A stretch of DNA of 64,000 bases from Kordiimonadales bacterium IMCC3096 (lineage in GTDB: Bacteria; Pseudomonadota; Alphaproteobacteria; Minwuiales; Minwuiaceae): NCBI GenBank assembly GCA_016865035.1, contig CP018227.1, positions 652,001-716,000 of the forward strand, given 5' to 3'. Every line of letters begins with the position of its first letter. The first letter of the stretch is position 1. Below are positions 1,302 through 51,637 of the stretch, piece after piece. A program made the position numbers and the translations under genes. Under the pieces are notes generated by a model. The model was not told the origin of the DNA. It did not search any database and saw only the letters and a list, made by a program, of their open reading frames with translations.

Positions 1302-1311
1302 GGATCTCACC

Positions 1312-3964: not shown

Positions 3965-3984
3965 GGCGTGATAGCCAATATCAC

Positions 3985-4040: not shown

Positions 4041-4083
4041 CCATTGCGAATGTCGGTTCAACCAACACGCAAGGAGACCGACA

Positions 4084-4446: not shown

Positions 4447-4447
4447 G

Positions 4448-4852
4448 ATGAGGGCTCCGGGCAAGTTCTTCCTGCTGGCCGGTGTGGCGGTGGGCCTTGG
4501 TGCCTGTTCCGTCACCTGGCCGCCCGAGCACGGCGGCGGCGCGGCGGAAATCTCCACCCGCACCTACCCCGCCGCGATCATCGATGCAGCCAGCGAGGGC
4601 GAGATCGCCCTGCAGGTCCGGCACGCCAACTGCCTGCGCAAGCTTGAGCAGTTGACCAACGACGGCGCGATGCGCTGGGCACCTGCCGAGCTGGTGCTGG
4701 CGGAACGTCTCGCCATTCGCGCCGGACGCGAGATCGCCGGCGGTCTGGACGCCGACGGCGCTGCCAACCTGATCGCCCTGAACGAACGCATGCAGAGGAT
4801 CGAAGACGCCATCGCGCGGGCGGCCAAGCCGCGCAATGGCGTCGCCCTCTGA
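4448..4852 (+). CDS. Small lipoprotein of unknown function
   Basis: A 134-residue protein with a lipoprotein signal peptide: hydrophobic residues 6-17 end in the lipobox LGAC, so the mature protein would start with a lipidated cysteine. The rest is helical and has no motif I recognise. The chosen start lies one base after the STAS stop codon. Between STAS and the export channel gene it may be an outer-membrane partner of the export machine, but that is from context only. Confidence 0.7.
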   Translation: MRAPGKFFLLAGVAVGLGACSVTWPPEHGGGAAEISTRTYPAAIIDAASEGEIALQVRHANCLRKLEQLTNDGAMRWAPAELVLAERLAIRAGREIAGGLDADGAANLIALNERMQRIEDAIARAAKPRNGVAL

Positions 4853-4884
4853 CTGACAGATCCCGAAGGTGAGGAGCACCCGAG

Positions 4885-7002: not shown

Positions 7003-7748
7003 TGGGCATCTTCAGACAGGCAATCACCCTCCCCGCTCCGACCAGTTTCCCGCTGGATCATACCGAGCTCGACCACCTGGGCGCACAGATCGCCCAGGCA
7101 GCAAAAGATGGCCATCCGGTGCGGGTACTGGTGACCGGCCCCGGCCGTGGCACAGGCTCCTCAACCCTTGCCTGGGCGCTGGCGCAGCGGGCCGCACTGG
7201 AAGGGCAAAGGGTGCTGTTCCTTGATCTCGACCCCCTGGTGCCCTTCACCCAGCATGTTCTGGCTCTGGATACCGCTGACGAGATCAAGATTGTCGGTAC
7301 TCTCATATCCCGCCCATGGTCGGTGCCAGGCCGGCAACTGGATGTCGCCTGCGTCAATACCGCGATCGCCGCCCATGCGAACCGGTCGGAGATCGGCGGG
7401 CAACTCGCGGATGAGCTTGACCGACTGTCCATGAACTACGACCTGGTCGTTGCCGACAGTGCCCCGGTTGCCGCCCGCCGGAGCACCGGGGCGCTGGACG
7501 GGTGCGCGGTTGCAGCCCGGTTTCATCTGACCTTCGTGACCGCACTTTCGGGAATGACGAACGCAGGACAGCTGGAGACGGTGATCACGCGCCTTGCCAA
7601 GATGGGCGCACGGGTTGGCGGGATCGTCCTGAACGAACGCGACATGGAACGGCCGCTGGAAGGCCTGTTGCGGCGGGCGAAGCAGGTCGCGGCCCGCTGG
7701 CCCTGGATGCCGAGATTGCTGGGTATCAGGTCCCGAACCGCGTTCTGA
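7002..7748 (+). CDS. BY-kinase/CpsD-like P-loop ATPase with degenerate Walker A
   Basis: A 248-residue protein of the MinD/ParA-like fold used by bacterial tyrosine kinases that regulate polysaccharide chain length. It has a Walker A' strand (VLFLDLDP) and a Walker B strand (LVVADSAPV). The P-loop reads GPGRGTGSST from about residue 46: the lysine expected before S/T is absent. There is no C-terminal tyrosine cluster. It is translationally coupled to the export protein. It may be a pseudokinase partner or bind nucleotide weakly. Its 3' end overlaps the convergent histidine kinase gene by 23 bases. Confidence 0.78.
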   Translation: MGIFRQAITLPAPTSFPLDHTELDHLGAQIAQAAKDGHPVRVLVTGPGRGTGSSTLAWALAQRAALEGQRVLFLDLDPLVPFTQHVLALDTADEIKIVGTLISRPWSVPGRQLDVACVNTAIAAHANRSEIGGQLADELDRLSMNYDLVVADSAPVAARRSTGALDGCAVAARFHLTFVTALSGMTNAGQLETVITRLAKMGARVGGIVLNERDMERPLEGLLRRAKQVAARWPWMPRLLGIRSRTAF

Positions 7749-10700
7749 CATATTCCCGCAACTCGCTGACTGATGCCTCGGCGAGTTGCCGGATGCCTCT
7801 CGCCATGGCAAGAGCACTGTCATCATCACCGTTGGCGACGGCGGCTTCGATGGCCCGACAGGTCCGGAACAGGCGCATCGCCCCCAGTGAACCACAGCTG
7901 CTGCCGATCCGGTGGGCAACGGAGTCCAGCGCCACGACGTCCTTCTCGTCCAGTGCAGTCTCGAACTCGGGGATTGCGCCTTCCAGATGCTCGGAGAAGA
8001 CACGGGCAATTTCGGGCACGACCGCCTCCGATGTCTCTTCGGCAAGGCGCTCGATCACATCGATGTCCAGCACAGGATCGCCAATGCCCGTGGCAGCAGG
8101 TGCCGCGACCGCTTCAGTGCCCTGATCCCTGAAGACCCAACGGTCGATCGTCCGGATGAGGTGCTGACGATCAATCGGCTTGGCGATGAAATCGTCCATG
8201 CCCGACGCGAGAATGTTCGACTTCTCGCTGTCCAAGACGTGCGCCGTCATGGCAACGATCGGAACATCAGCACGTTCACCCGGCAGCGCCCGAATGGCCG
8301 CCGTTGCGCTCAGGCCGTCCATTACCGGCATGCCGACATCCATCAGCACAGCCTCGTAGGACCGGCGCTGGACGGCACGCACGGCTTCCTCACCGTTGCC
8401 GGCGATATCGAGCCGGAACCCTGCCTTCTCCAGCATGACGCGTATGACCAGCTGATTGGCCGGATTGTCTTCGGCGACCAGCAGGCGCACGTTGCGTCGG
8501 CGATCCATGTCGGCGGCCACATCCTGCGGGCTCGCTTCAACGGGTCGAACCGGCGTCGCCGTCTTCTCGAGTTCGACCTCGAACCAGAAGTCGCTTCCCG
8601 TGCCGGTCTCGGTCGAGAAACCGATCTCTCCGCCGATGGTCTCCACGATCCGCTGGCATATGGCGAGGCCGAGACCGGTACCACCCATGGCATCCCCTGC
8701 CCCGGTCGAACTGGAGAACTCGGAGAACATATGGTCGCGAAGGTCTTCCGGCACGCCGGAGCCGGTATCTCGCACGGAGAACCGGAGCCTGGGGCGGCTT
8801 TCCGTACCGCCGACGGTCCCGATCCGGAAGGTGACACTGCCCTGCTCCGTGAACCGGATCGCGTTGGAGCCGAAGTTCAGAAGCACCTGTCGCAGCCGTC
8901 CCGGGTCTCCCAGCAGGGGCGTCGGAAGATCCGACGGCGCCTCGAGGCGGAGGTCGATACCCCTGTCCACGGCGCGTGGCGACAGCACCTCCACCACCAC
9001 CCGCGCAAGGTCCGCAGGATCGAAGGGCGAAATTTCCAGTTCCAGCTTGCCGGCTTCCATCTTCGAGAAGTCGAGGATGTCATTGATGACCGTGAGCAGG
9101 GCCTCTGCAGACGTGCGCCCTGTAACGACATAACGGCTCTGTTCGCTTGACAGTTCGGTATCGGAGAGCAGGCCCAGAACACCCAGAACCGCGTTCAGCG
9201 GTGTCCGGATCTCGTGGCTCATCATGGCCAGGAAACGGCTCTTCGCGCGGTTCGCCTCCTCGGCACGGTCGCGCTGCAGCATCAGTTCCGCCTCGGCCCG
9301 CTTCAGGCTCGACACGTCGAACCCGTACAGGTTGACTTCCTGCTTCTCGGGGATGGGACTCAACAGCACGCTGTACTGGATGTCGCCCACACCGATTTCC
9401 ATGTTGGCTGGCACACTGGAGGCAAGTGTCTCGTAGATCTTCTGTTGCCAGGCAGTGGTCGGGCGTGAACCCACCGAGACATTGAGGTGGTTGGCCAGCG
9501 GCCCGCTGGCCTCGTTGGCATAGAGCAGTTCACCGCGTCCGTCGAAACGCATCACCGGTGCCGGGTTTTCGTTCGGCAGGCGGGCCATGTCCTGCACGCG
9601 TTGCTCGGCGCTTCTGCGCTCCGAGATGTCCCTGATGTAGCTGACGAATTCCGGCCCGTCGCCGCTGTCGACCACGTTGATCGCAAGTTCGATCGGGAAG
9701 ATGCGGTCGGAGGCATCCATCGCATCGATCTCGATACGGTTGCCGATCACGGGTCCTTCACCGGTGACGAGATAGCGGGCGAGTCCGTTCCGGTGCGCTT
9801 CCCGCATGTCGCGGGGAATGATCAGATCAGCCATCTCCCTGCCGACCACATCCGCCGCACGGTAACCGAACAGCGTTTCGGCCGCCGGGTTGAAGGTCAC
9901 CACCTTGCCTTCGGCATCCATCACGATCACGCAGTCAAGCGCCACATCGATGGTCGCCCGAAGGCGTTTCTCGCTTTCCTGAAGCTCGAACTCCCGGCGT
10001 TTCAGCTCGGAAATATCGATCCGGAAACCCACGGTGCCGCCATCCGGGGTGCGCCGTTCGATGATCCGCAGCCAGCGACCGTCGCCCAGCTGCTGCTCCA
10101 GCGGTTCCTCCGGTGGGTTCCTGTGCAGCGCCAGGCGCGCGGCCACCCATTCCTCGATACGCCATTCGGACCCGGCGTACTGTCCGCGTTCGGCGCCGGT
10201 ACGGATGATGTGTTCAAAGGTGTTGCCGGACAACATGACGTCCGCGCTGTTTGCGTAGAAATCGCGATATTTCTGGTTGCAGATCACCAACCGGTCGTCC
10301 GCGTCATACAGGACGAAAGCGTCGGGCACGGCCTCGATTGCCGATACCAGGCGCGTTTGCGCGATCTGCAGTTCCAGTTCCCGCTGCTTGATCTCCGTGA
10401 TGTCGGTTCGGAAACCGACAATGCCGCCTTCCGGTGTTCGACGTTCGGTGATGCGTATCCATCGCCCTGAGGCCAGCTGCTTCTCGATCGGGTCTTCCGG
10501 CGGGTTCCGGTGTGCATGCATCCGGTCGGCAATCCATTCTTCCTCCCGTCCGACCGCTGCCAGATATTCGCCACGCTCGACACCGGCGCGAAGCCCGTCC
10601 TCGAACCGCGTGCCCGGCTCCATCATTTCCGGCGCATTTCCGTAGATCTCACGGTACTTCTGGTTGCAGATGACCAGGCGATCCTCCGCATCAAAGAGAA

Positions 10701-11817
10701 CAAAGCCGTCAGGCACGGTCTCGATTGCCGCGAGCAGCCGCTCCTGCAGCATTCGCGCTGTCTCCTGTGCCTCCCGTTCCTTGGTCCGGTCGGTGAGAAC
10801 GCCTGTGAACAGCCGCTCGCCATCCAGCCGGGTCTCGCTGAAGGAAATATCGCCCATCAGACGTCGGCCGGACTTGTGCACCGCAGTCAGGGTGGTCTGC
10901 CTGCCCGGCAGATCGACCGCTCCGGCCAGGTAGGCCTGGAACACCTTCTCGTAGATCGCGTACTGATCGGCCGGCATCAGGTCGCGCACGTGCAGCCGCA
11001 GGAATTCTTCCTCGGTGTAGCCGAACTGCTCGCAGACCGCCTTGTTGCAGCCAACGATCCTGAGGTTCAGATCGTGGGTCAGCAGCCCCTCGGAAAGAGC
11101 GTCGAAGATCGAAGACATGAGCCGGTCACGCTCGGAACGCTGATCTTCGAGCCGCGCTGCCTGCTCCCGTTCGGCTGCCACTCTCTCGGCTTCGATCCGG
11201 TCCAGAAAGGCGCTGGAAATCTGGCCGATCTCGTCCGGCTTGGCGGCAATCCTTCTGAGCCGTGTCAGATCCGGATTGGTCCCCCCTGTTACATCCAGTA
11301 CCGATCGCAGACGCCGCTGCACGATGACATAGTTGGCCAGCAACGCGCTGAGCAGTGCACCTGCCAGGGACACACCAAGTGCCGCAAGCACGAACAGCCG
11401 CTCCTCCCGCAATGTCTCGGTAATCCAGCTGCCGCCGTAATCGATCCTCAGGACGCCGTCCGGCTTCAGCGTGAAATCGACGTTCTTCCTGCTCTGGCGT
11501 TCGACACAGCCGCGGTTCGGCCAGCCGACCAGCACCCCCCCGTCGGTATCCAGCACGGTCACGCACCGGATGGACCGGTATCCCTGCGCGAGACGCAGCA
11601 GGTGAACGACGTCGGCATTCGCCTCGTGTCGTCTGGCTTCGGAAAGCGCCGTTGACAGATGGTGACCGAGGGAAGCGACCTGGGCCGCCACTTCAGATTC
11701 CATCGCGTCGCGGCGGAACTGGTCGTACCAGATCAGGAACCCCCCGGCGAATGCCAGAAACATCACCGCAAAGACAACAGTCACCCGTACGGCAAGGGAG
11801 GACAGGAGTTTCTTCAA
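7726..11817 (-). CDS. Hybrid sensor histidine kinase with multiple PAS, receiver and Hpt domains
   Basis: A 1363-residue inner-membrane sensor. Order: membrane helix 8-30, periplasmic region to about 138, second helix 140-162, HAMP-like linker, five PAS-like segments between about 235 and 865, a HisKA domain with H868 in SHEIRTPLN, an HATPase domain (DTGSGVP, GGTGLGLAICQ), a receiver with D1160 in LMDVGMPVMDG and an Hpt domain with H1302 in AHRIGSSCGSLGA. The complete internal phosphorelay implies a separate output regulator elsewhere. PAS segments 2 and 3 are close copies (VPDGFVLFDAEDRLVICNQK versus VPDAFVLYDADDRLVICNQK). It lies 6 bases after the 124-residue gene on the same strand, and its position suggests control of surface polysaccharide. 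Confidence 0.93.
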   Translation of the reverse strand: MKKLLSSLAVRVTVVFAVMFLAFAGGFLIWYDQFRRDAMESEVAAQVASLGHHLSTALSEARRHEANADVVHLLRLAQGYRSIRCVTVLDTDGGVLVGWPNRGCVERQSRKNVDFTLKPDGVLRIDYGGSWITETLREERLFVLAALGVSLAGALLSALLANYVIVQRRLRSVLDVTGGTNPDLTRLRRIAAKPDEIGQISSAFLDRIEAERVAAEREQAARLEDQRSERDRLMSSIFDALSEGLLTHDLNLRIVGCNKAVCEQFGYTEEEFLRLHVRDLMPADQYAIYEKVFQAYLAGAVDLPGRQTTLTAVHKSGRRLMGDISFSETRLDGERLFTGVLTDRTKEREAQETARMLQERLLAAIETVPDGFVLFDAEDRLVICNQKYREIYGNAPEMMEPGTRFEDGLRAGVERGEYLAAVGREEEWIADRMHAHRNPPEDPIEKQLASGRWIRITERRTPEGGIVGFRTDITEIKQRELELQIAQTRLVSAIEAVPDAFVLYDADDRLVICNQKYRDFYANSADVMLSGNTFEHIIRTGAERGQYAGSEWRIEEWVAARLALHRNPPEEPLEQQLGDGRWLRIIERRTPDGGTVGFRIDISELKRREFELQESEKRLRATIDVALDCVIVMDAEGKVVTFNPAAETLFGYRAADVVGREMADLIIPRDMREAHRNGLARYLVTGEGPVIGNRIEIDAMDASDRIFPIELAINVVDSGDGPEFVSYIRDISERRSAEQRVQDMARLPNENPAPVMRFDGRGELLYANEASGPLANHLNVSVGSRPTTAWQQKIYETLASSVPANMEIGVGDIQYSVLLSPIPEKQEVNLYGFDVSSLKRAEAELMLQRDRAEEANRAKSRFLAMMSHEIRTPLNAVLGVLGLLSDTELSSEQSRYVVTGRTSAEALLTVINDILDFSKMEAGKLELEISPFDPADLARVVVEVLSPRAVDRGIDLRLEAPSDLPTPLLGDPGRLRQVLLNFGSNAIRFTEQGSVTFRIGTVGGTESRPRLRFSVRDTGSGVPEDLRDHMFSEFSSSTGAGDAMGGTGLGLAICQRIVETIGGEIGFSTETGTGSDFWFEVELEKTATPVRPVEASPQDVAADMDRRRNVRLLVAEDNPANQLVIRVMLEKAGFRLDIAGNGEEAVRAVQRRSYEAVLMDVGMPVMDGLSATAAIRALPGERADVPIVAMTAHVLDSEKSNILASGMDDFIAKPIDRQHLIRTIDRWVFRDQGTEAVAAPAATGIGDPVLDIDVIERLAEETSEAVVPEIARVFSEHLEGAIPEFETALDEKDVVALDSVAHRIGSSCGSLGAMRLFRTCRAIEAAVANGDDDSALAMARGIRQLAEASVSELREYVRTRFGT

Positions 11818-39614: not shown

Positions 39615-40843
<1,229 letters not shown>

Positions 40844-41068
40844 CTCAAACCAAACGGCCTCCGGCAATCCCGGGGCGGTTCACGTGCCGATTGCCGAGTG
40901 ACCTCAAATCATTGTTGGCAAATCAGCATCCCTGCCTGTCTCACCGAACTGAATTTCGGTCTGGACTGTCACACTCAGGCAAGCATTGCTTGGCCTGCGG
41001 AGTTGACCATCCCCTGAGCCCTCGTTCGACCTCCCCTGTGCAGGCCCTGACCGACCGATCGGCAGGGC

Positions 41069-41137
41069 CCTGGGTCGTGGGAGGCGTATCGGCTGACCAC
41101 TGAGGTCCCGCCGATCGAAACGCCTCCCTGACCCAGG
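41069..41137 (+). promoter_or_regulatory. Long hairpin covering the ribosome binding site of the DUF3489 gene
   Basis: Three stacked stems pair 41069-41076 with 41130-41137, 41079-41087 with 41120-41128, and 41089-41093 with 41110-41114. The ribosome binding site AGGGAGG (41135-41141) lies partly in the outer stem, 5 bases before the ATG at 41147. The structure could block translation until opened. The rest of 40883-41068 shows no gene. Confidence 0.6.
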
Positions 41138-41146
41138 GAGGCTCTC

Positions 41147-41851
41147 ATGTTCCACCTCACCGACACCCAGCTCGTCATCCTGTCTAACGCCGCACAGGCA
41201 GAGGGTGGCTTCGTCCTGCCACTGCCCAACTGCCTGACCATCAACGGAGGCGCCATCGCGTCGGTGCTCTCGAGCCTGCTTCGCAAGGGTCTGGTCGAAG
41301 AGCGCCCACTGCAAGGGAAGGGAATAGCAAGCGCCGGATTGCATGCTACCGGTTCTGTTCAAATTGGTGCCTGTCATGGCCAAGACCGGGTCTGGCGCAG
41401 TGATAAGGACGGCAACAGGTTTGCCCTCGCCATCACCCGCGCTGGCCTGGACGCCATCGGTGTCGATGCCGACGATGACGAGGGTACCAGCACTGGAGAG
41501 GTGGGAGCCGGCTCCCCCAGTGGCTCCGTGCCTGACGCCTCTGGCGCAGAACCTCCGCAAGATGCTGATACCAAGCACGCTTGCGTTGGTGTCGCGGAGA
41601 CCAGTGAGCGGGCAGCATCGGGTCGAGCTGGTGGTAAGAACACCATCCGCCCAGGCACCCGCCAGTCCCTGCTGGTCGACCTGCTCCGACGCGACGGTGG
41701 TGCCAGCCTCGACGAACTGGTGCAGGCCACCGGCTGGCAACAGCACTCCGTGCGTGGCGCCATCAGCAGCATCGTCCGCAAGAAGCTCGGGCTCAAAGTG
41801 ATGTCGGAGAAGGTGGAAGGCCGTGGCCGTGTCTACCGGATCATCCCGTGA
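41147..41851 (+). CDS. DUF3489 domain protein
   Basis: A 234-residue protein. The C-terminal 70 residues (TRQSLLVDLLRRDGGASLDE, WQQHSVRGAISSIVRKK, GRGRVYRI) form the winged-helix-like DUF3489 domain, probably DNA-binding. The N-terminal part repeats a related helix pattern, and the middle is a disordered Ser/Gly/Asp linker. DUF3489 genes regularly precede DUF2924 and a recombinase in alphaproteobacterial elements, exactly as here, so it may regulate or assist recombination. It overlaps DUF2924 by ATGA or GTGA. Confidence 0.87.
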   Translation: MFHLTDTQLVILSNAAQAEGGFVLPLPNCLTINGGAIASVLSSLLRKGLVEERPLQGKGIASAGLHATGSVQIGACHGQDRVWRSDKDGNRFALAITRAGLDAIGVDADDDEGTSTGEVGAGSPSGSVPDASGAEPPQDADTKHACVGVAETSERAASGRAGGKNTIRPGTRQSLLVDLLRRDGGASLDELVQATGWQQHSVRGAISSIVRKKLGLKVMSEKVEGRGRVYRIIP

Positions 41852-42330
41852 GCAGGCGGTCGGCAAAGCGGCAGGGCAAGGTCTCGCACAAGGATCTCGA
41901 TGCCCTGTCCGGTCTCGACAAGTCCGAGCTTCACATACGCTGGGAAGAGGCCTTCAGCCATCCACCGCCGAAGTACATGCGCAGGAATATCCTCGTGCGT
42001 GCCGTGGCACACGAGACGCAGCTGGAAGCAGCGGGCGGAGTGCCTGCTGTCCTTGTCCGTCAGCTGGAACGGGCGGCAAGGTCCATGCGTGATGGCAAGA
42101 CGTCTACGTCTGCCAGCGATCACCATCGTTCCGCATCCGCCGTGACCATCAAGCCCGGCACCCGCCTGCTGCGTGACTGGCAGGACGTCACCCACGAGGT
42201 GATCATCCTCGAGAAGGGCGTCCAGTACCGAGGCCGGGAATGGTCCTCCCTCTCTGCCGTCGCTCGCGAGATCACCGGCACCCGCTGGTCCGGCCCCCGG
42301 TTCTTCGGCCTGAAGGGTCAGAAGACATGA
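41848..42330 (+). CDS. DUF2924 domain protein
   Basis: A 160-residue protein. The segment LSGLDKSELHIRWEEAFSHP and the C-terminal GTRLLRDWQDVTHEVIILEK, SLSAVAREITGTRWSGPRFF match DUF2924, where the last part resembles a small DNA-binding fold. Function is unproven; it always sits beside a serine recombinase, suggesting a recombination directionality or accessory factor. The start is GTG at 41848 and it overlaps the recombinase by ATGA. Confidence 0.88.
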   Translation: MSRRSAKRQGKVSHKDLDALSGLDKSELHIRWEEAFSHPPPKYMRRNILVRAVAHETQLEAAGGVPAVLVRQLERAARSMRDGKTSTSASDHHRSASAVTIKPGTRLLRDWQDVTHEVIILEKGVQYRGREWSSLSAVAREITGTRWSGPRFFGLKGQKT

Positions 42331-44114
42331 CTGTCACTGGTGACAAGGGAAGCAAACGCAGAAGGACCGAGAACTCGGTCCGGCGCTGTGCGGTCTATAC
42401 CCGCAAGTCCACCGAGGACGGACTGGACCAGGACTTCAACTCCCTGCATGCCCAGCGCGAAGCCTGCGAGGCCTATGTCCGCAGCCAGGTCGGCGAAGGC
42501 TGGAAGCTGCTGCCCGACCTCTATGATGATGGCGGCTTCTCCGGCGGCACCATGGATCGCCCGGCCCTGGCCCGCCTGCTGGCGGATATCGAGGCACAGA
42601 AGATCGACACCATCATCGTCTACAAGGTCGATCGCCTGACGCGCTCGCTGGCCGACTTCTCGCGCATCGTCGATGTGCTGGATGCGCATGATGTCTCCTT
42701 CGTCTCCATCACCCAGCAGTTCAACACCACCACCTCCATGGGAAGGCTGACCCTCAACATGCTGCTGTCCTTCGCCCAGTTCGAGCGCGAGGTCACGGGA
42801 GAGCGCATCCGCGACAAGATCGCCGCCTCCAAGCGCAAGGGCATGTGGATGGGCGGCTTCGTACCGCTCGGCTACGAGCCCGATGGCAGGACCCTCACCA
42901 TCAACGAGGAGGAAGCAGGAACAGTCAGAAAGGTCTTCGAGCTTTATCTCGAACTGGGGAATGTCCGGCATGTGAAGCAAGCTGCCGATGACCTTGGGCT
43001 CACCACCAAGGTCAGGCGCAGGGGAGTTGGTGAAAGCGAGGACAAGGCGGAAGGGCCGATAGAGAACGATGCACCCGCATCGAAGCGGTCAGGTGGCGGG
43101 CGTCCGCTGTCGCGGGGTTACATCTACAAGCTGCTGGGCAATCCGCTCTACATTGGCTGCATCGCTCACAAGGGCGAGATACACGAGGGGCTGCATCCAG
43201 CCATCATCGACCTGACCACATGGGACGCCGTACAGCAGAAGCTGATCTCCAACCGGGGGCGGAAGCGCAGCATGCCCTCCCGCAGGACGGAACCCAGCCC
43301 GCTGATGGGCAAGCTGTTCGATTCCGATGGCCGTCCCCTGACACCCAGTCATGCGGTGAAGTCCGGCAGGCGCTATCGCTATTACGTCTCACGGCACCTG
43401 GTGAATGGCACCGTGGGGGAGAGCACCACCGATAGCGGCTGGAGACTCCCGGCACGGGAGATCGAGCGGATCACCGCTGATGCCATCACGGCACTGATCA
43501 GCAACCCGGCACGGCTGGCAGAGGCTGCACGGGACAGCGGCATCCCCGCAGACCGGATCGGCGCGCTACTGGGCAAGGTCTCCGAAAGCACCAACCCGGG
43601 CACGGGGAACGCCACCAGCCATCCAAGCTCTATCGGAATCAGGAATCATCCTCACGTTCTCGTGGACCGTGTCGTGCTCGGCAGCGACCGGATCGAGATC
43701 ACGCTCGACCTGTCATCGATGACCGAACTGCCCGACACCACAATCACCCACCACATCCCGACCTGCATCCGAAAGCGCGGCGTCGAGATGCGGCTGGTGC
43801 TTGATGGACCCAACAAGGGAGAGGCACCGGCAAATCCGGACCAACGCCTCATCCGCTGCGTCGTGCAGGCCCATGCCTGGTTCGACGACCTCAAGCAGGG
43901 CCGGGTGGCTACCCTCTCGGACATCGCCCGATTAGAAAGTGTCAGTGACCGCTACATCAGCCAGGTCCTGCCGCTGGCATTCCTTGCACCCGACATCACC
44001 GAGGCGATCCTTGACGGGCGACAGCCGCCGGAGCTCACCGCCGAGACGCTGATCAAGCGCATCGACCTGCCGCTGCACTGGGATGATCAGAGGGCATTGC
44101 TGGGCTTCAGCTGA
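42327..44114 (+). CDS. Large serine recombinase
   Basis: A 595-residue site-specific recombinase. The resolvase domain comes first: the nucleophilic serine is in VYTRKSTEDG, and the arginine motifs are in YKVDRLTRSLADF and FEREVTGERIRDKIAASK. A recombinase domain and zinc-ribbon-like segment follow (RGYIYKLLGNPLYIGCIAHKG) although the ribbon lacks an obvious set of four cysteines. The C-terminal third is a helical DNA-binding region. This enzyme probably integrated the older island; its own attachment sites were not found. Gene order DUF3489-DUF2924-recombinase is a conserved module. Confidence 0.93.
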   Translation: MTVTGDKGSKRRRTENSVRRCAVYTRKSTEDGLDQDFNSLHAQREACEAYVRSQVGEGWKLLPDLYDDGGFSGGTMDRPALARLLADIEAQKIDTIIVYKVDRLTRSLADFSRIVDVLDAHDVSFVSITQQFNTTTSMGRLTLNMLLSFAQFEREVTGERIRDKIAASKRKGMWMGGFVPLGYEPDGRTLTINEEEAGTVRKVFELYLELGNVRHVKQAADDLGLTTKVRRRGVGESEDKAEGPIENDAPASKRSGGGRPLSRGYIYKLLGNPLYIGCIAHKGEIHEGLHPAIIDLTTWDAVQQKLISNRGRKRSMPSRRTEPSPLMGKLFDSDGRPLTPSHAVKSGRRYRYYVSRHLVNGTVGESTTDSGWRLPAREIERITADAITALISNPARLAEAARDSGIPADRIGALLGKVSESTNPGTGNATSHPSSIGIRNHPHVLVDRVVLGSDRIEITLDLSSMTELPDTTITHHIPTCIRKRGVEMRLVLDGPNKGEAPANPDQRLIRCVVQAHAWFDDLKQGRVATLSDIARLESVSDRYISQVLPLAFLAPDITEAILDGRQPPELTAETLIKRIDLPLHWDDQRALLGFS

Positions 44115-44312: not shown

Positions 44313-44332
44313 TGGCGGAGAGGATGGGATTC
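44313..44332 (+). other. Left attachment core of the tRNA-Ser element
   Basis: This 20-bp sequence equals the last 20 bases of the tRNA-Ser(GCT) gene including CCA (as read on the plus strand). The preceding 44115-44312 holds no gene. Confidence 0.88.
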
Positions 44333-44415
44333 TGTGAGCCCGATCTCCCTCAGTCGTTTTCCCTTGTGCTCCCTTGAGCCTGTCAGCTTCTCCGTCGGTC
44401 GTTACCGAGCGGTTG

Positions 44416-44433
44416 TGTAGCAATCTATGTAGC
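44416..44433 (+). promoter_or_regulatory. Candidate integrase arm-type sites, left side
   Basis: Two copies of TGTAGC with starts 12 bp apart, 84 bases from the att core. The same pair occurs on the other side of the core at 51465-51482, also 12 bp apart and in the same orientation, which is how arm-type binding sites of tyrosine integrases are laid out. Confidence 0.6.
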
Positions 44434-44940
44434 AATATCGGGAGCACTTTTGAATCCTCTTGTCGCATAGATCCAGGTCGTTCCTTTGGGTGGATGAACG
44501 ACAGAATCTGGGTGCCTTCTGTATAGACTCTGGAGGTGTCTTCAGAGTCCAGTTCACAGGATCGGCTGTCATGTACCGGTTACGACAGAGAGGACTCCTG
44601 AGAGGCCTCTGGAGGCTTCCTGAGGGGTGCTGCCATCAGGGAGGGGATCGGTAGAAGTGGGGAGCTTAAGGGGTACATGGAATCTAAAGAGGGTAATTGC
44701 TCCTAAGTATCTAATTATAATGAGTTATATGTGATCATGAGAGGTCAGGAAGACCTAAGATAGGGTAGATGAAAGGTATATCTTATGATGCACCCTTCTC
44801 ATTAGAGGAACAAGAATAAGATATTGATAACATTAAATGTTTCTACATAATAGGAAGCCCTCAACCCTACCCCTTCCCTCTGTGTCGTCATGCTCTCGGA
44901 GCAATCAGAAGTGAGCTTCCTCCGACGCAACCCTTTAGGA

Positions 44941-44970
44941 GGGGGGAGAGGGGGAGAGGGGGACAGGGGG
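44941..44970 (+). other. G-quadruplex-prone tract in the left arm
   Basis: Four G-runs (44941-44946, 44950-44954, 44958-44962, 44966-44970) with 3-base spacers AGA or ACA. The mirrored C-rich copy is at 49394-49423. Confidence 0.75.
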
Positions 44971-45036
44971 CCAGGTTCATATATGTGAAAGGGGCTTGAG
45001 ATTTTCCCAGGGAAATTAATGGGATAGGGGGGGCAA

Positions 45037-45579
45037 TCAAGAAATATTTTTGAAATACTCCTCAAAACGGCGAGTCGGCTCGAACAATCCTGTGCTTGCT
45101 ATGCTGATTTGGTAGAAAGCATCTTCTCTTCCAATTTGATAAGATTCCTGATGGGTATTTATTGAATGGTATAGGCGTTGTGAAAATGCTTCATCGACAG
45201 GTTTTTCAGTGGACATGTTAATCACATCACCTCCAGCGTAGAAAGATTGCCAGAAAATTAAGGCTGAAGTATCTGAACGATGGCTCAATCGAGTTGCGGC
45301 ATGCATCGCGTCATCAAACATCTTCGCAGAACGCCCCTTGAGTTTGATCTGTTTTCTTCCGTAGTAGCTAATATGACCCCTAGCCTTGAGCACGCCGAGT
45401 GTAAAACCCTCAATAAGACCGAGAAAATACGCCTCAACTGCCGCGTTTTTATGAGGTTTTTCAATCAGAGAAATAGCCGGAAAGCCAAATCTTTCCGTTT
45501 CCATTTGAAGTGTCGTATTCGCCGATTGAATCACAGCCATGATAGCGTCTTCGGGTAATCGATTCCATGGTAAGGGCAA
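45037..45579 (-). CDS. Element-encoded protein of unknown function
   Basis: A 180-residue soluble protein with no family I recognise. Features are a mid-region EAYFLGLIEGFTLGVLKARG and an acidic, aromatic C terminus. It probably starts at TTG (45579), because AGAGGA lies 7 bases upstream; ATG at 45540 is the alternative. It follows the polymerase-like gene by 42 bases on the same strand, so they likely share a transcript and it may be a replication accessory. Confidence 0.65.
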   Translation of the reverse strand: MPLPWNRLPEDAIMAVIQSANTTLQMETERFGFPAISLIEKPHKNAAVEAYFLGLIEGFTLGVLKARGHISYYGRKQIKLKGRSAKMFDDAMHAATRLSHRSDTSALIFWQSFYAGGDVINMSTEKPVDEAFSQRLYHSINTHQESYQIGREDAFYQISIASTGLFEPTRRFEEYFKNIS

Positions 45580-45621
45580 TTTACATTCCTCTAAATTGAT
45601 CCGGTATCATTCGGGCGATCC

Positions 45622-47007
45622 CTATTTCACATCCACCCTCACCGGGAATCTAACAATCTCGAGTGCGGATCTTTCCATCACCTCTCGAAGCACCTCCTCG
45701 TGCCACTTCTCCACTATGAACGAATCATGGATGGGAAGCACCGGGATACCCCTGCCAATCAAATCATCTATGACCTTCATGCATATGTCGCTATCGGTTC
45801 GCTGGAGCCTGATTCCCATGTCGCTACAGAAGAAGTGAGCTATAGGCTCATTGAGCTTCTTTAGGCTTTCCAATGCCTCTCGAAGCTCCTCGTTGGTCTT
45901 CGATGAAAGGCTCGTAAACGCTGCATGACCTTCGCTGAAGTTCGTTAGCATTGCCTCCAGATGCTCAAGGTCCGAGGTGTCCAACCAATCTGGATCATAC
46001 AGATCCTGCCCCTCTGCCAAACGATCAGCCAACGTCTGGGCCTTGGATGAAGCCTGCCTTCTGAAGGCTTGGAACAGGGCCTTTTCGTCTTTCGCATTGA
46101 TGGCCGTGAGCAAGAGCAACTTGGATGCCGGTCTTTCGAAGGAGTTGAGTTGGTAGGGATCGTGCTCTAGCGCCCTTCCGACCATGGCATACAGGAGCCT
46201 TGGATGCAGTGCGTTGTAGTCAAGTTCGACGACCGGATTACCGTTGATGGTCAACCTGTCTCTCCAGGCACCTCCTTCTTGCTGCCACCATCCTCCATAG
46301 ATCCTTCCACCCAGAGCGAACGGATCGTCACTGCCTGGCTCAACTGAGAAGCTCCGGTAGCACCGGTTGGACTTGCCACCAGGCTCGCTCCCACCAAGCT
46401 TGATCCGAGTGTTGCCGATGAGGCGATTGAAACTGCGAAGTGTGTCTCGTGAGTGCTTCGTCAGATCGTTGTCCTGATAATCGATCAGGTCTCTAGTCTT
46501 TCTCTCCCTGACCCTGATCACCTCAGCATTCGGGTGAATAGCTATCGCTTCGGCAGGCAATGCAGAGGCCCTGAAGAGTTCGGTGAGAGGTTCGAGAGGC
46601 CAGATAATCGACTGATACCCTTTGCCTGATTTGTAGTCCTTCCACCCCTTCTTGAGCCCAATGACGCTCTGTTCGTCGAGGTGATGTATCAGGCTGGGCG
46701 TATGCTTGGAGATATGAAGGGCATTGTAGCGGCCTTGCCTATAGTCTTTGTGCCTCATGGATACAGCGACTGAAAGTGAGGGTCTTTGTTTCCAGACGAC
46801 GTAGAGGTGAAGCAGCAGCACCTTGAGATAGTGCTTAGCATCCTTCGGGGTGGATTTCTGGTCCTTCGGTATCCATTGCCCCTCAACATGGTCAGCAAAT
46901 ACCCTGTCAACGAAGGTGTTCGATTCTGGGTGATCTGACCATGTGTGGACATCAAAAGGGACAGAGTGCGTGTATGAACGCTCATGTGGTGCTGGATTAC
47001 AATGCAA
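45622..47007 (-). CDS. Uncharacterised palm-polymerase-like protein of mobile elements
   Basis: About 461 residues. Two motifs recall family A polymerases or T7-type RNA polymerases: NPVVELDYNALHPRLLYAM (aspartate plus YxxLHP, motif-A-like) and GIPVLPIHDSFIVEKW (HDS, motif-C-like), with GIRLQRTDSDI between. Homologues with the same order, including GGWWQ, are common unannotated genes in proteobacterial elements, to my knowledge. TTG at 47007 is chosen because AGAGGGGG lies 5 bases upstream; a longer frame reaches 47196 but has no good signal. Likely role: replication or priming of the element. Not shown experimentally as far as I know. Confidence 0.62.
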   Translation of the reverse strand: MHCNPAPHERSYTHSVPFDVHTWSDHPESNTFVDRVFADHVEGQWIPKDQKSTPKDAKHYLKVLLLHLYVVWKQRPSLSVAVSMRHKDYRQGRYNALHISKHTPSLIHHLDEQSVIGLKKGWKDYKSGKGYQSIIWPLEPLTELFRASALPAEAIAIHPNAEVIRVRERKTRDLIDYQDNDLTKHSRDTLRSFNRLIGNTRIKLGGSEPGGKSNRCYRSFSVEPGSDDPFALGGRIYGGWWQQEGGAWRDRLTINGNPVVELDYNALHPRLLYAMVGRALEHDPYQLNSFERPASKLLLLTAINAKDEKALFQAFRRQASSKAQTLADRLAEGQDLYDPDWLDTSDLEHLEAMLTNFSEGHAAFTSLSSKTNEELREALESLKKLNEPIAHFFCSDMGIRLQRTDSDICMKVIDDLIGRGIPVLPIHDSFIVEKWHEEVLREVMERSALEIVRFPVRVDVK

Positions 47008-47149
47008 ATTTTCCCCCTCTAAAACCGATAATCGATTGTTTATAATATGTAATTGTGGCCAAATTTGTATGGATGAGGGACATAATTTTGCCAAACACCG
47101 GGCCGGAAAGATTTTTGAAAGTGCGTGGGCCTGCGAATACTCAAGCCCC

Positions 47150-47947
47150 TCATTTGCATGTGTTGCCCCACCCTCTATCCAGGTGGAAATGATCATGGTG
47201 TGCGGCGTTATAAGCTGGGCTTAGCGCAGACCTGAAATATCGACAGGTGCCATCAGCAATCGAATGAAGGAATCTTGCCCTGTCATCCTTCCCCTTCCAA
47301 TGTCTGCGTACGCTCAGGTTTGAACCATCGCTTGTTGCAAAGGCTGCAACATCGATGGCCGCAGCTTTGGCGTGAACGCTTCTCCATGGCGTTCCGGCTA
47401 TGTTGCGGCACGCATAGGTTCCGAAGTGAGTGATCTTGCGTACAGTCGTCGAAAGCGTCTCCCTAGCAGCGGGCGCAACTACCTTGGTCAACCAAAGGGC
47501 CATAGCGGCAGCGGTCCCACAATCAATCGGTGAGGCGTTCACCTCAATGTTGTCCACTGCATTCAGACGGATAGCATTTGCCCAACCGCACCCCTCTCGT
47601 TCCGGCATCGCATTCACCCTTTCCGCCGATATCAAGGGTGAAGAGAGCACCACTTGCTCGCATAGAGCTGGATCCTGGCTGATTGCAGCTATCTGCCAAT
47701 CAACGAACAGACCATCAGGCTCCAAAAGGTTCAGCGATGGGATCAGGGCATATGGTGGTGGTACAAGTGCAAAATGAATGAGCAGGCCCCATACAGAAAC
47801 AACGCTTACTGTTAGCGCAAAGCCATACACCGGCCAAAGCCATAGGGGCTTGGTCAATGGTCCCGAGCCTTGCCCACCAAGTTCCGGGTTATCTCCGTCA
47901 TGCACGGTCGCATCTGATCTGTGCCCGCATTGATTCCCATCCGTCAT
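47150..47947 (-). CDS. Extensin-family (peptidase M15-like) membrane-anchored hydrolase
   Basis: About 265 residues. One N-terminal membrane helix (LWLWPVYGFALTVSVVSVW) is followed by an extensin-like C-terminal domain. The metal-binding residues are seen in WRSVHAKAAAIDVAAF and in HHDHFHLDRG, the H-x6-D and HxDHxH layout of D-Ala-D-Ala-type peptidases. Cysteine pairs suggest a periplasmic disulfide-bonded fold. It may cut peptidoglycan cross-links. ATG at 47947 has GGAGG and GGGG upstream; TTG at 47992 is an alternative. Confidence 0.85.
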   Translation of the reverse strand: MTDGNQCGHRSDATVHDGDNPELGGQGSGPLTKPLWLWPVYGFALTVSVVSVWGLLIHFALVPPPYALIPSLNLLEPDGLFVDWQIAAISQDPALCEQVVLSSPLISAERVNAMPEREGCGWANAIRLNAVDNIEVNASPIDCGTAAAMALWLTKVVAPAARETLSTTVRKITHFGTYACRNIAGTPWRSVHAKAAAIDVAAFATSDGSNLSVRRHWKGKDDRARFLHSIADGTCRYFRSALSPAYNAAHHDHFHLDRGWGNTCK

Positions 47948-48346
47948 ATGCCCCAGATCCTCCACGTTGTGTGCGTCGAAGATCCTTCGCAAATTGGGCG
48001 GGAATAGGACGACTCATGACTTGATGCTGCCATAAAGGGTGCGGCCACTTGGCTCACAAGCCTTGCCGATGCCCGCCAAAAATTGAAGGATTGGCGCAGA
48101 GACTGCAACGAGGTCAGGCGCCATAGCGCAATCGATTGCAACGTGCCGATCACGCTGCATAATCATGGTTGCGATGCCAGCACGCCATGGTGAACAGAGC
48201 CGGAAAACTCCAGTATCCGGCGTTCCAGACTTGGGGAGCTAAGCACAAAACCAACTGACTTTAACTCCAACTGGGGAAAGCTGGGGATCACGCCATCATC
48301 GGTGGACTTCTGGAAAAAAAATTGAAACTCAAATGCGGGAAAGGTA
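47948..48346. other. Spacer between divergent element genes
   Basis: About 400 bases before two divergent genes. A 50-codon frame on the minus strand (48014-48166) overlaps by ATGA a further short frame, so small coupled peptides are possible, but no motif supports them. Promoters for both directions should lie here; I cannot point to boxes with confidence. Confidence 0.4.
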
Positions 48347-48781
48347 TTGGAAGTGTTTGGACGTAGTAAGCGTAGAAGCGCACTAATTAAAGAACTGTGT
48401 GAGCATCGTATGAAGGCGAATGGCCTCGATGATCGTTCGATCCGATTAGAAATAAAGGGAATGGGATCTCTCAAGGTAATGGGTTTGCCAGAAGCGACGA
48501 TTGTAACAATAGTCGAGATTGCAGCCAAGAACCAGAAAAGGGGAGAATTGCTTCAAAATACCCTGACCTCCCTAGAGCGAACTAGAAAAATTCGCGGTCA
48601 AGACGCAGAATATTTTTCGCTGATATTGAAAGAAGCAAGGGGTCACAACCCCGTATCTGCCTTGTCATCTTACTGTTTGTATAGATTAGGAATCGAAAAT
48701 GGAGCCCACTTGTTTCAATTTGACGCAGATTTGACATCTGACCTTGTCGCGATGGCATTAGAAGAAATTGTTAATTGGTAG
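48347..48781 (+). CDS. Element-encoded protein of unknown function, plus strand
   Basis: A 144-residue soluble, helical, charged protein that I do not recognise. The start is TTG at 48347 or GTG at 48353, with GGAAAGG just upstream. It is more AT-rich than core genes. It is transcribed away from the extensin gene and is the only plus-strand gene of the element, a position often held by a regulator or defence gene; no DNA-binding motif is evident. Confidence 0.55.
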   Translation: MEVFGRSKRRSALIKELCEHRMKANGLDDRSIRLEIKGMGSLKVMGLPEATIVTIVEIAAKNQKRGELLQNTLTSLERTRKIRGQDAEYFSLILKEARGHNPVSALSSYCLYRLGIENGAHLFQFDADLTSDLVAMALEEIVNW

Positions 48782-48942
48782 GATAGGTGGTTTGAATATT
48801 TTTTGTTCATAAAATGTTACCGGAAACGAGGTCATGGCAGATATGTTGCTCTGATCTATATTGCGATTTTGACTGCCAAGGCTCGTCACGCGATGCGTAA
48901 AATTCAGTTTTATTAAATATCACGCAAACCCAGATGGCTAGA

Positions 48943-49119
48943 CTACCAAAGCCCTAACCAGACTCCTGCGCCATGCACAATTGCTACAGGAAAGAAAATT
49001 GCACCGGCAATCAGAAATCCCCACGCCTCTTCTGTAAAACATGTGTACAAATGCTGAAACCATGCTGCTGCACAAGTTACAAACAGCATTACCGCCAAAA
49101 ATCCTGAAGGATTATCCAC
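48943..49119 (-). CDS. 58-residue membrane protein, second of an overlapping pair
   Basis: Starting at GTG (49119) inside the end of the preceding frame, it reads MDNPSGFLAVMLFVTCAAAW, then QHLYTCFTEEAWGFLIAG, then a second hydrophobic segment ending VHGAGVWLGLW. Two transmembrane helices and conserved-looking histidines and tryptophans. Similar tiny proteins occur in proteobacterial elements; the function is unknown. Confidence 0.6.
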   Translation of the reverse strand: MDNPSGFLAVMLFVTCAAAWFQHLYTCFTEEAWGFLIAGAIFFPVAIVHGAGVWLGLW

Positions 49120-49243
49120 GTCTCTTTTCCTTCTCTTTTGCCTTATTGTTGGACATTAATAAATTTGCCGCAACAACCACAATCGCAATCGGTGGAAAAA
49201 GCCATAAAAATATCGGAACCCCAAGAAATGTCTTATTTTTCAT
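49112..49243 (-). CDS. 43-residue membrane protein, first of an overlapping pair
   Basis: An ATG frame on the minus strand encoding MKNKTFLGVPIFLWLFPPIA, continuing with a hydrophobic helix and a lysine-rich tail (KAKEKEKRRG). It overlaps the 58-residue gene by 8 bases, implying coupled translation. A holin-like or membrane-anchoring role can only be guessed from size and topology. Confidence 0.58.
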   Translation of the reverse strand: MKNKTFLGVPIFLWLFPPIAIVVVAANLLMSNNKAKEKEKRRG

Positions 49244-49346
49244 GCCGTAAATCTACCTATAAAGACAATCAAATTTTGCCAAGATGATGTTTTTGTGTTA
49301 ACAAGACGGTGCAATCAGTAATGCGCGTTTCTAATAGAAAGTAAAC

Positions 49347-50051
49347 AATTTCCCTGGGAAAATCTCAAGCCCCTTTCACATATATGAACCTGGCCCCCTG
49401 TCCCCCTCTCCCCCTCTCCCCCCTCCTAAAGGGTTGCGTCGGAGGAAGCTCACTTCTGATTGCTCCGAGAGCATGACGACACAGAGGGAAGGGGTAGGGT
49501 TGAGGGCTTCCTATTATGTAGAAACATTTAATGTTATCAATATCTTATTCTTGTTCCTCTAATGAGAAGGGTGCATCATAAGATATACCTTTCATCTACC
49601 CTATCTTAGGTCTTCCTGACCTCTCATGATCACATATAACTCATTATAATTAGATACTTAGGAGCAATTACCCTCTTTAGATTCCATGTACCCCTTAAGC
49701 TCCCCACTTCTACCGATCCCCTCCCTGATGGCAGCACCCCTCAGGAAGCCTCCAGAGGCCTCTCAGGAGTCCTCTCTGTCGTAACCGGTACATGACAGCC
49801 GATCCTGTGAACTGGACTCTGAAGACACCTCCAGAGTCTATACAGAAGGCACCCAGATTCTGTCGTTCATCCACCCAAAGGAACGACCTGGATCTATGCG
49901 ACAAGAGGATTCAAAAGTGCTCCCGATATTGCTACATAGATTGCTACACAACCGCTCGGTAACGACCGACGGAGAAGCTGACAGGCTCAAGGGAGCACAA
50001 GGGAAAACGACTGAGGGAGATCGGGCTCACAGAATCCCATCCTCTCCGCCA
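49347..50051 (-). repeat. 705-bp inverted repeat, right arm
   Basis: Mirror copy of 44313-45017, ending in the inverted att core at 50032-50051. It includes the reversed arm-type sites at 49931-49948 and the C-rich complement of the G-rich tract at 49394-49423. No gene of its own is seen in 49244-50184. Confidence 0.93.
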
Positions 50052-50191
50052 CTTTCCCCTAAAGTTCTATCCTTAGAGCAACTTAGCCTCTCTTGAGGTT
50101 TCCACCGAGCGTCCTGCTACACACGACGCTACACAGGGAATCACATGAAGCTGCACCAAAGGGGAAGCACTCACCACATCAGGGTCAGGGT
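50032..50191 (-). repeat. 160-bp inverted repeat, copy next to the integrase 3' end
   Basis: Mirror of 51407-51566 (paired coordinates sum to 101598). It starts with the att core and contains the integrase leader and the first 15 codons of the integrase in reverse. With the adjoining 705-bp arm it forms an intact attP-like junction: arm, core, integrase-proximal arm. The integrase stop codon at 50185 lies inside it. Confidence 0.92.
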
Positions 50192-51453
50192 GTAACAATC
50201 TCCAGGTCGTAGTCGATGGTGCCAAGGCTGGCGTGTAGCTTGTCGACGTCATAGTCCTTGCCATAACGACCGAGGGTGATCGACGCCTCCTGATGCCCAA
50301 CAATCTGTCGGATGATCGGTTCCGCTACCCCATCCTGCTTCAGATGGTTGATGAAAGTGTGCCGGAAAGAGTGGAAGCAATATTTCCGGTCCTCAAACCC
50401 CCGGTCGCGTTTGTATCGACCAAACCATTTGCCGACAGAGTTCGAATAGCGTCCCAATCGATTGGGCTGGAGATTGCTCCAGAGACGCTGCTTGGGCCGT
50501 TCAGTCAATTTCTCCACGATATCCAGGAAGCCCAGTCTGATGAGCTCGGGGTGGAGAGGGACAAGTCGCTGAGCTGCTGCTGTCTTCAACAGCCCCGCTT
50601 CGTCGTTAACACTGAAACACCAGAACCCATCGTGCTCGACGACATCACAACATCTGAGTTGGCAGATCTCCTCCAGACGCATACCCGAGTAGGCAGCTAT
50701 CAATGGAACCCACCGTCTTTCCGGTCGTTCCTCATGGAGCCAAAGGTCGTTTAGAAGCCTCTTCATCTGCTCGTTGTCGTACGCGAAACGCTGGTCCCAG
50801 TCCCTGCCCCGCTTCCTGATACTCAATCCCTCTGCCGGGTTACCACCTATCAATTCCTCACGAACTCCCCAACGGAGGAGCCCCGACAGAAATTGAAGGT
50901 GCTTGTTGACGGACTTGTCCGACAAGAGCCTGTCAGCATTCTTCGAGGCATTGTCCTCCCTCAGAAGGTACTGGGGAGTCGCAAGCAACGCCTCCTTGTA
51001 GGCCCTGCATCGGGATCGGTTCAGGTCCGTCAGCTTGATGTTGCCGATATGGTGGACTGCAATGCGAAAGCTGTAATCCATTGTCATCAGTGTCCTTGGA
51101 TCGACAGCCTTCTCTTTCTCCGTCAGGTACGCCTTGGCCAGATCGTCCAGACGAGTGATTGATGGTGTCGTCAGCTTGTCAGCATGAGAACGACGGGTGC
51201 TGCCCAGACTCTCCAGGAAGGCAGAAGCCAGGGTCGCCACATCGCTCTCACAGGCTGAGGCCAACCTTGCGACACGCAATCTTTCAAAGCCGGTCACAAT
51301 AGCGACCTTCAACGAACTGGCCCGAGCCTGTGCAGTTCGACTGTCAGATGTTCGCAGAGACTGATGGATTTCACGTCGTTCAAGGACTTCAACCAGGTCC
51401 GACGGGACCCTGACCCTGATGTGGTGAGTGCTTCCCCTTTGGTGCAGCTTCAT
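50185..51453 (-). CDS. Tyrosine integrase of the tRNA-Ser element
   Basis: A 422-residue phage-type integrase. An N-terminal arm-binding part and a core-binding domain precede the catalytic residues: arginine in AYSGMRLEEICQLR, HSFRHTFINHL with the His-x-x-Arg pair, and VGHQEASITLGRYGKDY with histidine and the nucleophilic tyrosine. It is next to the tRNA and transcribed away from it, as is usual. Its first 15 codons are repeated inverted at its 3' end, so the C-terminal residues VTP may not be the ancestral end; the catalytic domain is complete. Confidence 0.93.
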   Translation of the reverse strand: MKLHQRGSTHHIRVRVPSDLVEVLERREIHQSLRTSDSRTAQARASSLKVAIVTGFERLRVARLASACESDVATLASAFLESLGSTRRSHADKLTTPSITRLDDLAKAYLTEKEKAVDPRTLMTMDYSFRIAVHHIGNIKLTDLNRSRCRAYKEALLATPQYLLREDNASKNADRLLSDKSVNKHLQFLSGLLRWGVREELIGGNPAEGLSIRKRGRDWDQRFAYDNEQMKRLLNDLWLHEERPERRWVPLIAAYSGMRLEEICQLRCCDVVEHDGFWCFSVNDEAGLLKTAAAQRLVPLHPELIRLGFLDIVEKLTERPKQRLWSNLQPNRLGRYSNSVGKWFGRYKRDRGFEDRKYCFHSFRHTFINHLKQDGVAEPIIRQIVGHQEASITLGRYGKDYDVDKLHASLGTIDYDLEIVTP

Positions 51454-51566
51454 GTGATTCCCTGTGTAGCGTCGTGTGTAGCAGGACGCTCGGTGGAAAC
51501 CTCAAGAGAGGCTAAGTTGCTCTAAGGATAGAACTTTAGGGGAAAGTGGCGGAGAGGATGGGATTC
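51407..51566 (+). repeat. 160-bp inverted repeat, copy at the tRNA end
   Basis: Holds the integrase start, its leader and the att core within tRNA-Ser. TGTAGC arm-type candidates are at 51465-51470 and 51477-51482. It is mirrored by 50032-50191. Confidence 0.92.
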
Positions 51567-51637
51567 GAACCCACGAGGGAGGATTAGTCCCCACTCCCTT
51601 AGCAGGGGAGCGCCTTAAGCCACTCGGCCACCTCTCC
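51547..51637 (-). tRNA. tRNA-Ser(GCT) with encoded CCA
   Basis: A 91-base gene on the minus strand. The acceptor stem GGAGAGG pairs with CCTCTCC, the anticodon loop is CTGCTAA (anticodon GCT), a long variable arm typical of tRNA-Ser follows, and the T-loop reads GGTTCGAATCC. The CCA end is encoded at 51547-51549. Its 3' end is the attachment site of the element on its left. Confidence 0.96.

Follow-up and report, generated by a model that had tools for sequence, protein, structure and literature searches.

A complete attP in inverted orientation between the integrase and cargo modules of a recurrent kind of tRNA-targeted integrative element

Once integrated, a tRNA-targeted island usually keeps only the half sites attL and attR, with no attP left. 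In the Thermococcales, Int of pTN3/TKV4 is a tyrosine integrase that targets tRNA genes and that integrates, excises and also inverts DNA lying between inverted att sites (PMC5495485). The same paper gives the yeast 2-micron plasmid as a case where Flp-mediated inversion between FRT sites controls copy number, and this plasmid has been studied as an instance of double rolling-circle replication (PMC3147054). PICMIs, which are satellites of marine bacteria, are packaged as concatemers and their replication is described as rolling circle; the words ‘inverted’ and ‘attP’ are absent from the main text of that description (PMC10803314). In PMC5025042, the term ‘inverted attP’ refers to a test plasmid. 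The open PMC literature, queried with the search terms used, yielded no natural integrative element that permanently carries an inverted attP.

We analysed a stretch of 64,000 nucleotides (the window) from Kordiimonadales bacterium IMCC3096, whose genome is assembled as a single contig of 4.29 Mb. The window contains an element of 7.2 kb (44313–51566). It had been predicted that a 20-nt core occurs here three times with the middle copy inverted, and this proved to be exact: the direct copies start at 44313 and 51547 (spacing 7234) and the inverted copy lies at 50032–50051. We defined the core copy on the tRNA side as S and the inverted internal copy as T. S (51547–51566, + strand) is the attR core and forms the 3′ end of the intact target gene, a tRNA-Ser(GCT) (51547–51637, − strand; ARAGORN and Rfam RF00005). 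The attL core (44313–44332, + strand) is a direct copy of this tRNA 3′ end and a 100% repeat, and the core of T (50032–50051, − strand) was identified as a repeat match.

Each core is joined to one or two further repeats. Arm b is 685 bp long and is present next to the attL core (44333–45017, + strand) and, as a 100% inverted repeat, on one side of T (49347–50031, − strand). Arm a is 140 bp long and is present next to S (51407–51546, + strand) and, again as a 100% inverted repeat, on the other side of T (50052–50191, − strand), where it repeats the opening 47 nt of the integrase gene and also overlaps the integrase stop codon. Aligned together with their cores, 44313–45017 matched the reverse complement of 49347–50051 over 705 nt at 100%, and 50032–50191 matched the reverse complement of 51407–51566 over 160 nt at 100%. 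The orientation of both segments was taken as in the assembly. Thus, attR consists of the tRNA gene, core and arm a, and attL of arm b, core and chromosome, each being half a site. At T, the inverted core is joined both to the left-end arm and to the integrase-end arm, which is the complete attP junction that had been predicted, and the element therefore holds more than half sites, with a complete internal attP at 49347–50191.

The arms also carry a repeated motif, GTAGCR-N6-GTAGCA, which has four matches in the window, one per arm copy: 44417–44434 (+ strand) in arm b of attL, 49930–49947 (− strand) in the internal arm b, 50115–50132 (− strand) in the internal arm a and 51466–51483 (+ strand) in arm a of attR. 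Only at T do these site pairs flank the core on both sides; attL and attR have them on one side each. The same pattern is found beside the integrase of a relative, L042, and we infer that the pairs are the arm sites of the integrase. A chance origin of the repeats was ruled out, as they are 100% identical, the core (up to three mismatches allowed) occurs three times in the window and in none of 100 shuffles, and the site pair has a shuffle mean of 0.01. Judged by its sequence, T is a complete attP in inverted orientation inside an integrated element. The element can be divided into an integrase module (arm a–int–arm a′) and a cargo module (arm b′–cargo–arm b), both of them bounded by an inverted repeat of their own.

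The first module contains the integrase gene, located between S and T (50185–51453, − strand). Its 422-aa product is a tyrosine integrase with an N-terminal DUF6538 domain (PF20172, E 1.5e-17) and a Phage_integrase domain (PF00589, E 1.1e-11), and corresponds to the phrog_1 integrase (E 7.2e-45). The element has the composition of a tRNA-targeted tyrosine-integrase island: besides the integrase, it has an intact tRNA gene at one end, and the tRNA 3′ end is repeated directly at the opposite end. The cargo, between T and attL, comprises a 280-aa Extensin-like_C domain protein (47150–47992, − strand; PF06904, E 3e-46), a 524-aa polymerase-like protein of PHROG 4756 (45622–47196, − strand; phrog_4756, E 1.4e-51) and ORFs of 180 aa (45037–45579, − strand) and 144 aa (48347–48781, + strand), for neither of which searches of Pfam, PHROG and PADLOC gave a family at the thresholds applied.

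In the polymerase-like protein, residues D326, R355, K359, H490 and D491 were invariant both in 17 and in 11 aligned sequences; their positions fit those of motifs A, B and C in family-A polymerases. The structural model of the protein (mean pLDDT 75.1) had family-A DNA polymerases as its best PDB folds, although the match was weak (E 5.7e-5, TM 0.23). A scan of viral contigs with the polymerase alignment gave ten relatives, which were used for the structure alignment only. Relatives of this PHROG 4756 protein occur in integrative elements and in phages of Vibrio, Aeromonas, Rheinheimera and others, and are annotated as hypothetical among the matches listed. The DNA directly to the left of attL (39938–44114) encodes a DUF2924 protein, a large serine recombinase and, by eye, an IS3-like transposase ORF, and appears to be other mobile-looking DNA that adjoins the element.

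In the window's own genome, the 845-bp junction matched only the three att places. Arm b DNA matched one of 385 genomes at class level, which was the window's own, and a clean empty site was not found in genomes of the same genus, where the left flank had no match. The window-type element is thus represented by one complete example. L042 encodes an integrase 57% identical to that of the window and also adjoins a tRNA-Ser; the locus sequence breaks off inside the integrase, whose stop is directed towards the tRNA, the reverse of what is seen in the window. Among full-length relatives, the integrase of L093 comes closest to that of the window (38%), and L093 has direct repeats only. With 14-nt seeds, the tRNA 3′ end was found in direct copies and never inverted in the class-level elements L033, L036, L038, L093–L096, L108 and L110; in L033, another place in the tRNA gave a trivial inverted match of 14 nt. 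Another kind of inverted arrangement was seen in L106 (G347:C1:546001-566000, positions 9280–11218), a polymerase-bearing locus at a tRNA-Gly, which has an inverted copy of the tRNA 5′ end (24–26 nt) as well as direct copies of the tRNA 3′ side.

Following the polymerase-like protein of the window led to G308, a genome of the window's class, which the named relatives indicate to be Alphaproteobacteria; it has the same layout. On its contig C1, a tRNA-Gly is followed by core, arm a, the integrase, an inverted core joined to both arm a and arm b, and then the polymerase. Contig C37 starts with arm b, followed by the core and then chromosome, as expected of attL. The G308 integrase is 22% identical to the window integrase over the aligned part. 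Integrases of the G308 family were present in 81 of 136 genomes of the order to which G308 belongs, and part of these made up the analysed sample: 90 distinct integrase hits, of which 84 were near full length and 78 were evaluable. Left out were the six hits that were not near full length, six of the 84 that lay too near an end, and L225, a duplicate.

An inverted repeat flanking int was found for 65 of the 78 evaluable integrase genes under loose criteria (39 of 45 genomes) and for 55 of the 78 under strict criteria (at least 40 nt, at least 80%), with 13 of the 78 loci having no flanking repeat. The median repeat was 79 bp long and 98.7% identical. In 39 of the 49 T-bearing loci for which an upstream tRNA was called, 10 nt or more from the 3′ end of that tRNA fell within the repeat; in the other 10 the aligned repeat stopped short of the tRNA, several being cut by a contig end. 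The tRNA genes used were of 12 kinds. In the three single-contig genomes G385, G219 and G509, 13 of 13 loci had the repeat by the loose criteria and 11 of 13 by the strict. A cargo-side partner of arm b of at least 140 bp was present in the fetched DNA for 10 of the 65 (141–1511 bp; partners of 25 bp in L262 and 27 bp in L269 were excluded from the 10). The polymerase-like gene was present in only 8 of 43 T-bearing elements, and in the gene content of seven complete elements, some small ones showed no replication gene by eye. On the T side, the available DNA ends within 1.1 kb of 21 of the 84 near-full-length integrases, so that part of the class may go unseen in draft assemblies.

The 2.6-Mb single contig of G385 holds eight near-full-length integrases of the inverted-T class, with cargo that by eye includes EamA-type transporters (L205) and a fatty-acid-hydroxylase-like protein (L208). 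At L170 (G452:C10:1-15000, positions 1189–10000) there are two tandem elements behind a tRNA-Thr, and the cores run direct, inverted, direct, inverted.

As controls, we examined integrases of other subfamilies from the class genomes. None of 40 had a flanking inverted repeat; 26 of them lie beside a tRNA gene. Same-family loci cut with the same 1.5-kb flanks had the repeat in 22 of 30 cases, the family set having been collected at a looser E-value than the control. The eight family loci without a repeat were L177, L178, L185, L196, L197, L201, L203 (where an 18-nt match was scored as a miss) and L204, some of them at contig ends. Among L245–L253, only L245 had a clear repeat; L251 had 25 nt at 84% and L253 had 28 nt at 79%. 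When the upstream side of one element was paired with the downstream side of another, 6 of 293 mismatched pairs matched under strict criteria and 41 of 293 under loose criteria, the loose matches probably arising because elements share tRNA ends. One further candidate, L097, was dropped, since its repeat (7887–7947/9266–9324) bounds another gene with no integrase hit.

The layout was also found in another family, and there in a named strain. On the megaplasmid of Ruegeria sp. TM1040 (NC_008043.1), an element at tRNA-Phe with integrase WP_011537162.1 has an S/T repeat of 85 bp (100%), an arm-b repeat of 1,148 bp (100%) and a type I restriction system as cargo. An identical BRO family protein is annotated twice in this locus, in inverted orientation (L344, 16511–17086 and 26855–27430), because the gene lies inside arm b, which is present at both ends of the cargo. 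Of 12 further loci of the TM1040 integrase family, eight had the repeat and four did not (L347, L349, L350 and L354). G635 and the single-contig genome G833 (4 of 6) have the layout as well. Single-protein scans of viral contigs with the window polymerase, both integrases and the L101 polymerase found no relative. A scan with the integrase alignment gave 42 loci, of which one was close (L302, 44%) and has int flanked by a repeat of 84 bp; the contig that bears L302 may represent host DNA.

The recurrence of the layout bears on how the inverted junction arose in the window. One suggestion in the original prediction was a second, partial copy captured during recombination. This is not supported, as the layout recurs at 12 kinds of tRNA gene, in single-contig genomes and in TM1040, and no second integrase was present among the tested ORFs of the window element. 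A tree of 60 integrases placed that of the window, together with L042, among 10 others in which T was not found (support 96/95). The G308-order integrases, together with L245 and L246 of other groups, formed a separate clade of 44 rows (100/100), 39 of which were T-positive. The window integrase therefore lies outside the DUF6538 clade of the G308-order integrases in this 60-row tree, in which the TM1040 integrase was not included; branches were long and the tool warned of a join outside the window and G308 clades. This topology suggests that T arose at least twice, the alternative being one origin followed by losses.

As indirect evidence on whether T is active, we first compared the two sites within elements with those of relatives. 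The S and T arms of an element were 99.5% identical in the median, against 67.6% between relatives, and for pairs of elements that both have T and whose integrases share 70% identity or more, the within-element value was the higher in 37 of 39. In this comparison pairs share members, and the arms were delimited by the element's own repeat, which favours high within-element values. Related elements also occur at different tRNA genes: L217 (tRNA-Asn) and L224 (tRNA-Gly) have integrases 89% identical, and each has its own tRNA 3′ end in both S and T.

The cargo was seen in both orientations among relatives, though not within one strain. One such pair is L158 (G400, tRNA-Arg) and L292 (G405, tRNA-Gly, the tRNA being seen in the overlapping locus L231), whose integrases are 54% identical. 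Each has about 16–17 kb of cargo, about half of it without a counterpart in the other. The common blocks of 7.47 kb (96%), 0.79 kb (93%) and 0.34 kb (84%), all between T and attL, are inverted and in reverse order; close to T, another 1.1 kb matches at 75% without being inverted. Towards the core, the high homology stops ∼400 bp short of it, where arm b has its inner edge, and therefore the change was not a clean exchange at the cores. Among the polymerase-bearing elements, the polymerase gene has the same sense as int in five and the opposite sense in three, and both senses were seen in other related cargo pairs.

The orientation of int itself is nearly constant. It lies downstream of the tRNA gene and in the same sense in 63 of 84 cases and is turned in one (L289), with no tRNA called nearby in the remaining 20. 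In L289 (G473:C5, 607–2972), the integrase stop faces the 3′ end of a tRNA-Arg, with the inverted core situated upstream of where int starts; the repeat is only 20 nt long. As int is almost never turned, free flipping between attR and T in the chromosome must be absent or selected against. Inversion in a circle leaves the site beside the int start unchanged, so that integration through that site gives a constant int orientation. Turning int in the chromosome through attR and T would not keep it constant, and at most one case of this was seen. The active pairs are thus more plausibly T and attL, or S and T in the circle, than attR and T.

Taking the anatomy, its recurrence, the likeness of sites within an element and the two cargo orientations among relatives together, the reading that we favour, and hold to be rather probable, is that of a two-module element that would form a circle with two inverted attP sites, in which the integrase would invert the cargo and the likeliest benefit would be inversion of a replication fork. 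Excision through attL and attR would give a circle in which two identical attP sites face each other. The integrase, acting on these two sites or on T and attL in the chromosome, would then turn the cargo relative to int; circle formation and the integrase as inverting agent are deduced from the layout, and cargo inversion by the integrase is likely. A flip made while the circle, or the host fork, is replicating would let one initiation give double rolling-circle amplification and concatemers. As the polymerase-like gene occurs in so few elements, such amplification would mostly depend on host or helper forks. Among the possible benefits, cassette exchange ranks a close second to this fork-flip amplification. 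Against this reading, the excised circle is a prediction, the isomers were seen between relatives rather than in one element, and arm b (141–1511 bp) is long enough for ordinary homologous recombination to have been the inverting agent. Also counting against it are the near-constant orientation of int, the 13 loci that have no repeat, the 10 repeats that stop short of the tRNA, the unmatched half and the same-sense stretch of the L158/L292 cargo, the rarity of the polymerase-like gene, the purely direct repeats of L093 and the single complete example of the window type. A bolder form, which we would entertain only tentatively, is that these elements are a widespread class resembling a chromosomal 2-micron plasmid, in which the flip through the second attP reverses an internal or passing fork and thereby brings about self-amplification even where there is no replication gene, and cargo is both turned and traded. 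The original prediction had offered, as its other possibility, that the element uses inverted sites on purpose. As a statement about architecture this is supported by the recurrence, the probable two origins, the alike site copies and the cargo in both orientations; as a statement about integrase-driven inversion it stays at the level of what the layout implies.

The same observations can be read in other ways. Long arms b would permit RecA-type exchange and the action of the integrase at T is deduced, so T might be no more than an inverted duplication of the att junction that is kept by gene conversion and permits homologous inversion only. We find this rather doubtful, as T has probably originated twice and is present in 65 of 78 loci, and the repeat around int has a median of only ∼79 bp and yet is 98.7% identical, with copies alike within elements and not between them. 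A somewhat better case, though still one that we would not back, can be made for natural cassette exchange. As every module ends in inverted cores and has arms of its own, cargo could pass between two elements sharing a cell through a pair of crossovers, in the manner of engineered exchange with inverted attP sites; T would then serve to swap the cargo and not the entire island, with orientation a by-product. The 7.47-kb cargo shared at 96% by elements with integrases only 54% identical, at different tRNA genes and in opposite orientation, fits such trading, as do the related integrases at different tRNA genes (L217/L224), each with its own tRNA 3′ end in its repeat, and the tandem elements with alternating cores (L170). 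However, the ∼400 bp of arm b by the core differ between L158 and L292, where exchange at the core would have carried arm b along.

Less probable again is a switch in the manner of phase variation, where turning the cargo or int relative to a promoter on the tRNA side alters expression. Cargo in both orientations agrees with this, and the position of int downstream of and in sense with the tRNA (63 to 1) would permit read-through into int. The cargo, however, varies widely and includes both transporter-like ORFs and a type I restriction system, with no common end gene in the few elements inspected, and the identical arm b at both cargo ends also argues against a switch. Finally, inverted duplications are a known class of artefact, and an error of assembly or amplification in the window genome has to be considered. 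This we find barely credible: the genome is a single contig, the repeat junctions coincide exactly with the att ends, and the search of other genomes that the original prediction had proposed found the layout to be recurrent, in further single-contig genomes and in TM1040. As a general explanation an artefact is refuted, and for the class the point is answered.

A recurrent design that keeps an inverted attP after integration, with int boxed between inverted sites, predicts recombinase-driven inversion in bacterial integrative elements and would explain why the cargo is found either way round. It would also offer a route to amplification for elements without replication genes. Such elements can be searched for through a simple signature, a tRNA 3′ end whose inverted copy flanks an integrase gene, and the presence of the design in Ruegeria sp. 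TM1040, a named strain, makes it testable at the bench.

Several known systems share part of this design. Engineered inverted-attP cassettes are likewise stretches of DNA bounded by inverted att sites that can be exchanged or inverted, but these are man-made and use serine integrases such as phiC31. Marine satellites (VEIMEs, tycheposons and PICMIs) are, like the elements described here, small integrative elements of marine bacteria (PMC10803314). Ordinary tRNA-targeted islands, as collected by Islander, also have an integrase, an intact tRNA gene and direct cores at their ends; they are described without an internal inverted attP (PMC4383910), which agrees with the 0 of 40 loci of other subfamilies here. 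For pTN3/TKV4, the inverted sites are chromosomal tRNA genes or were built into plasmids, rather than being a permanent second attP (PMC5495485). The 2-micron plasmid differs in being a eukaryotic plasmid that does not integrate into tRNA genes, and inversion and amplification are only proposed for the window-type elements. It is nevertheless the system that the predicted circle resembles in having two inverted identical sites together with an encoded recombinase, as Flp and FRT provide in the 2-micron plasmid (PMC5495485).
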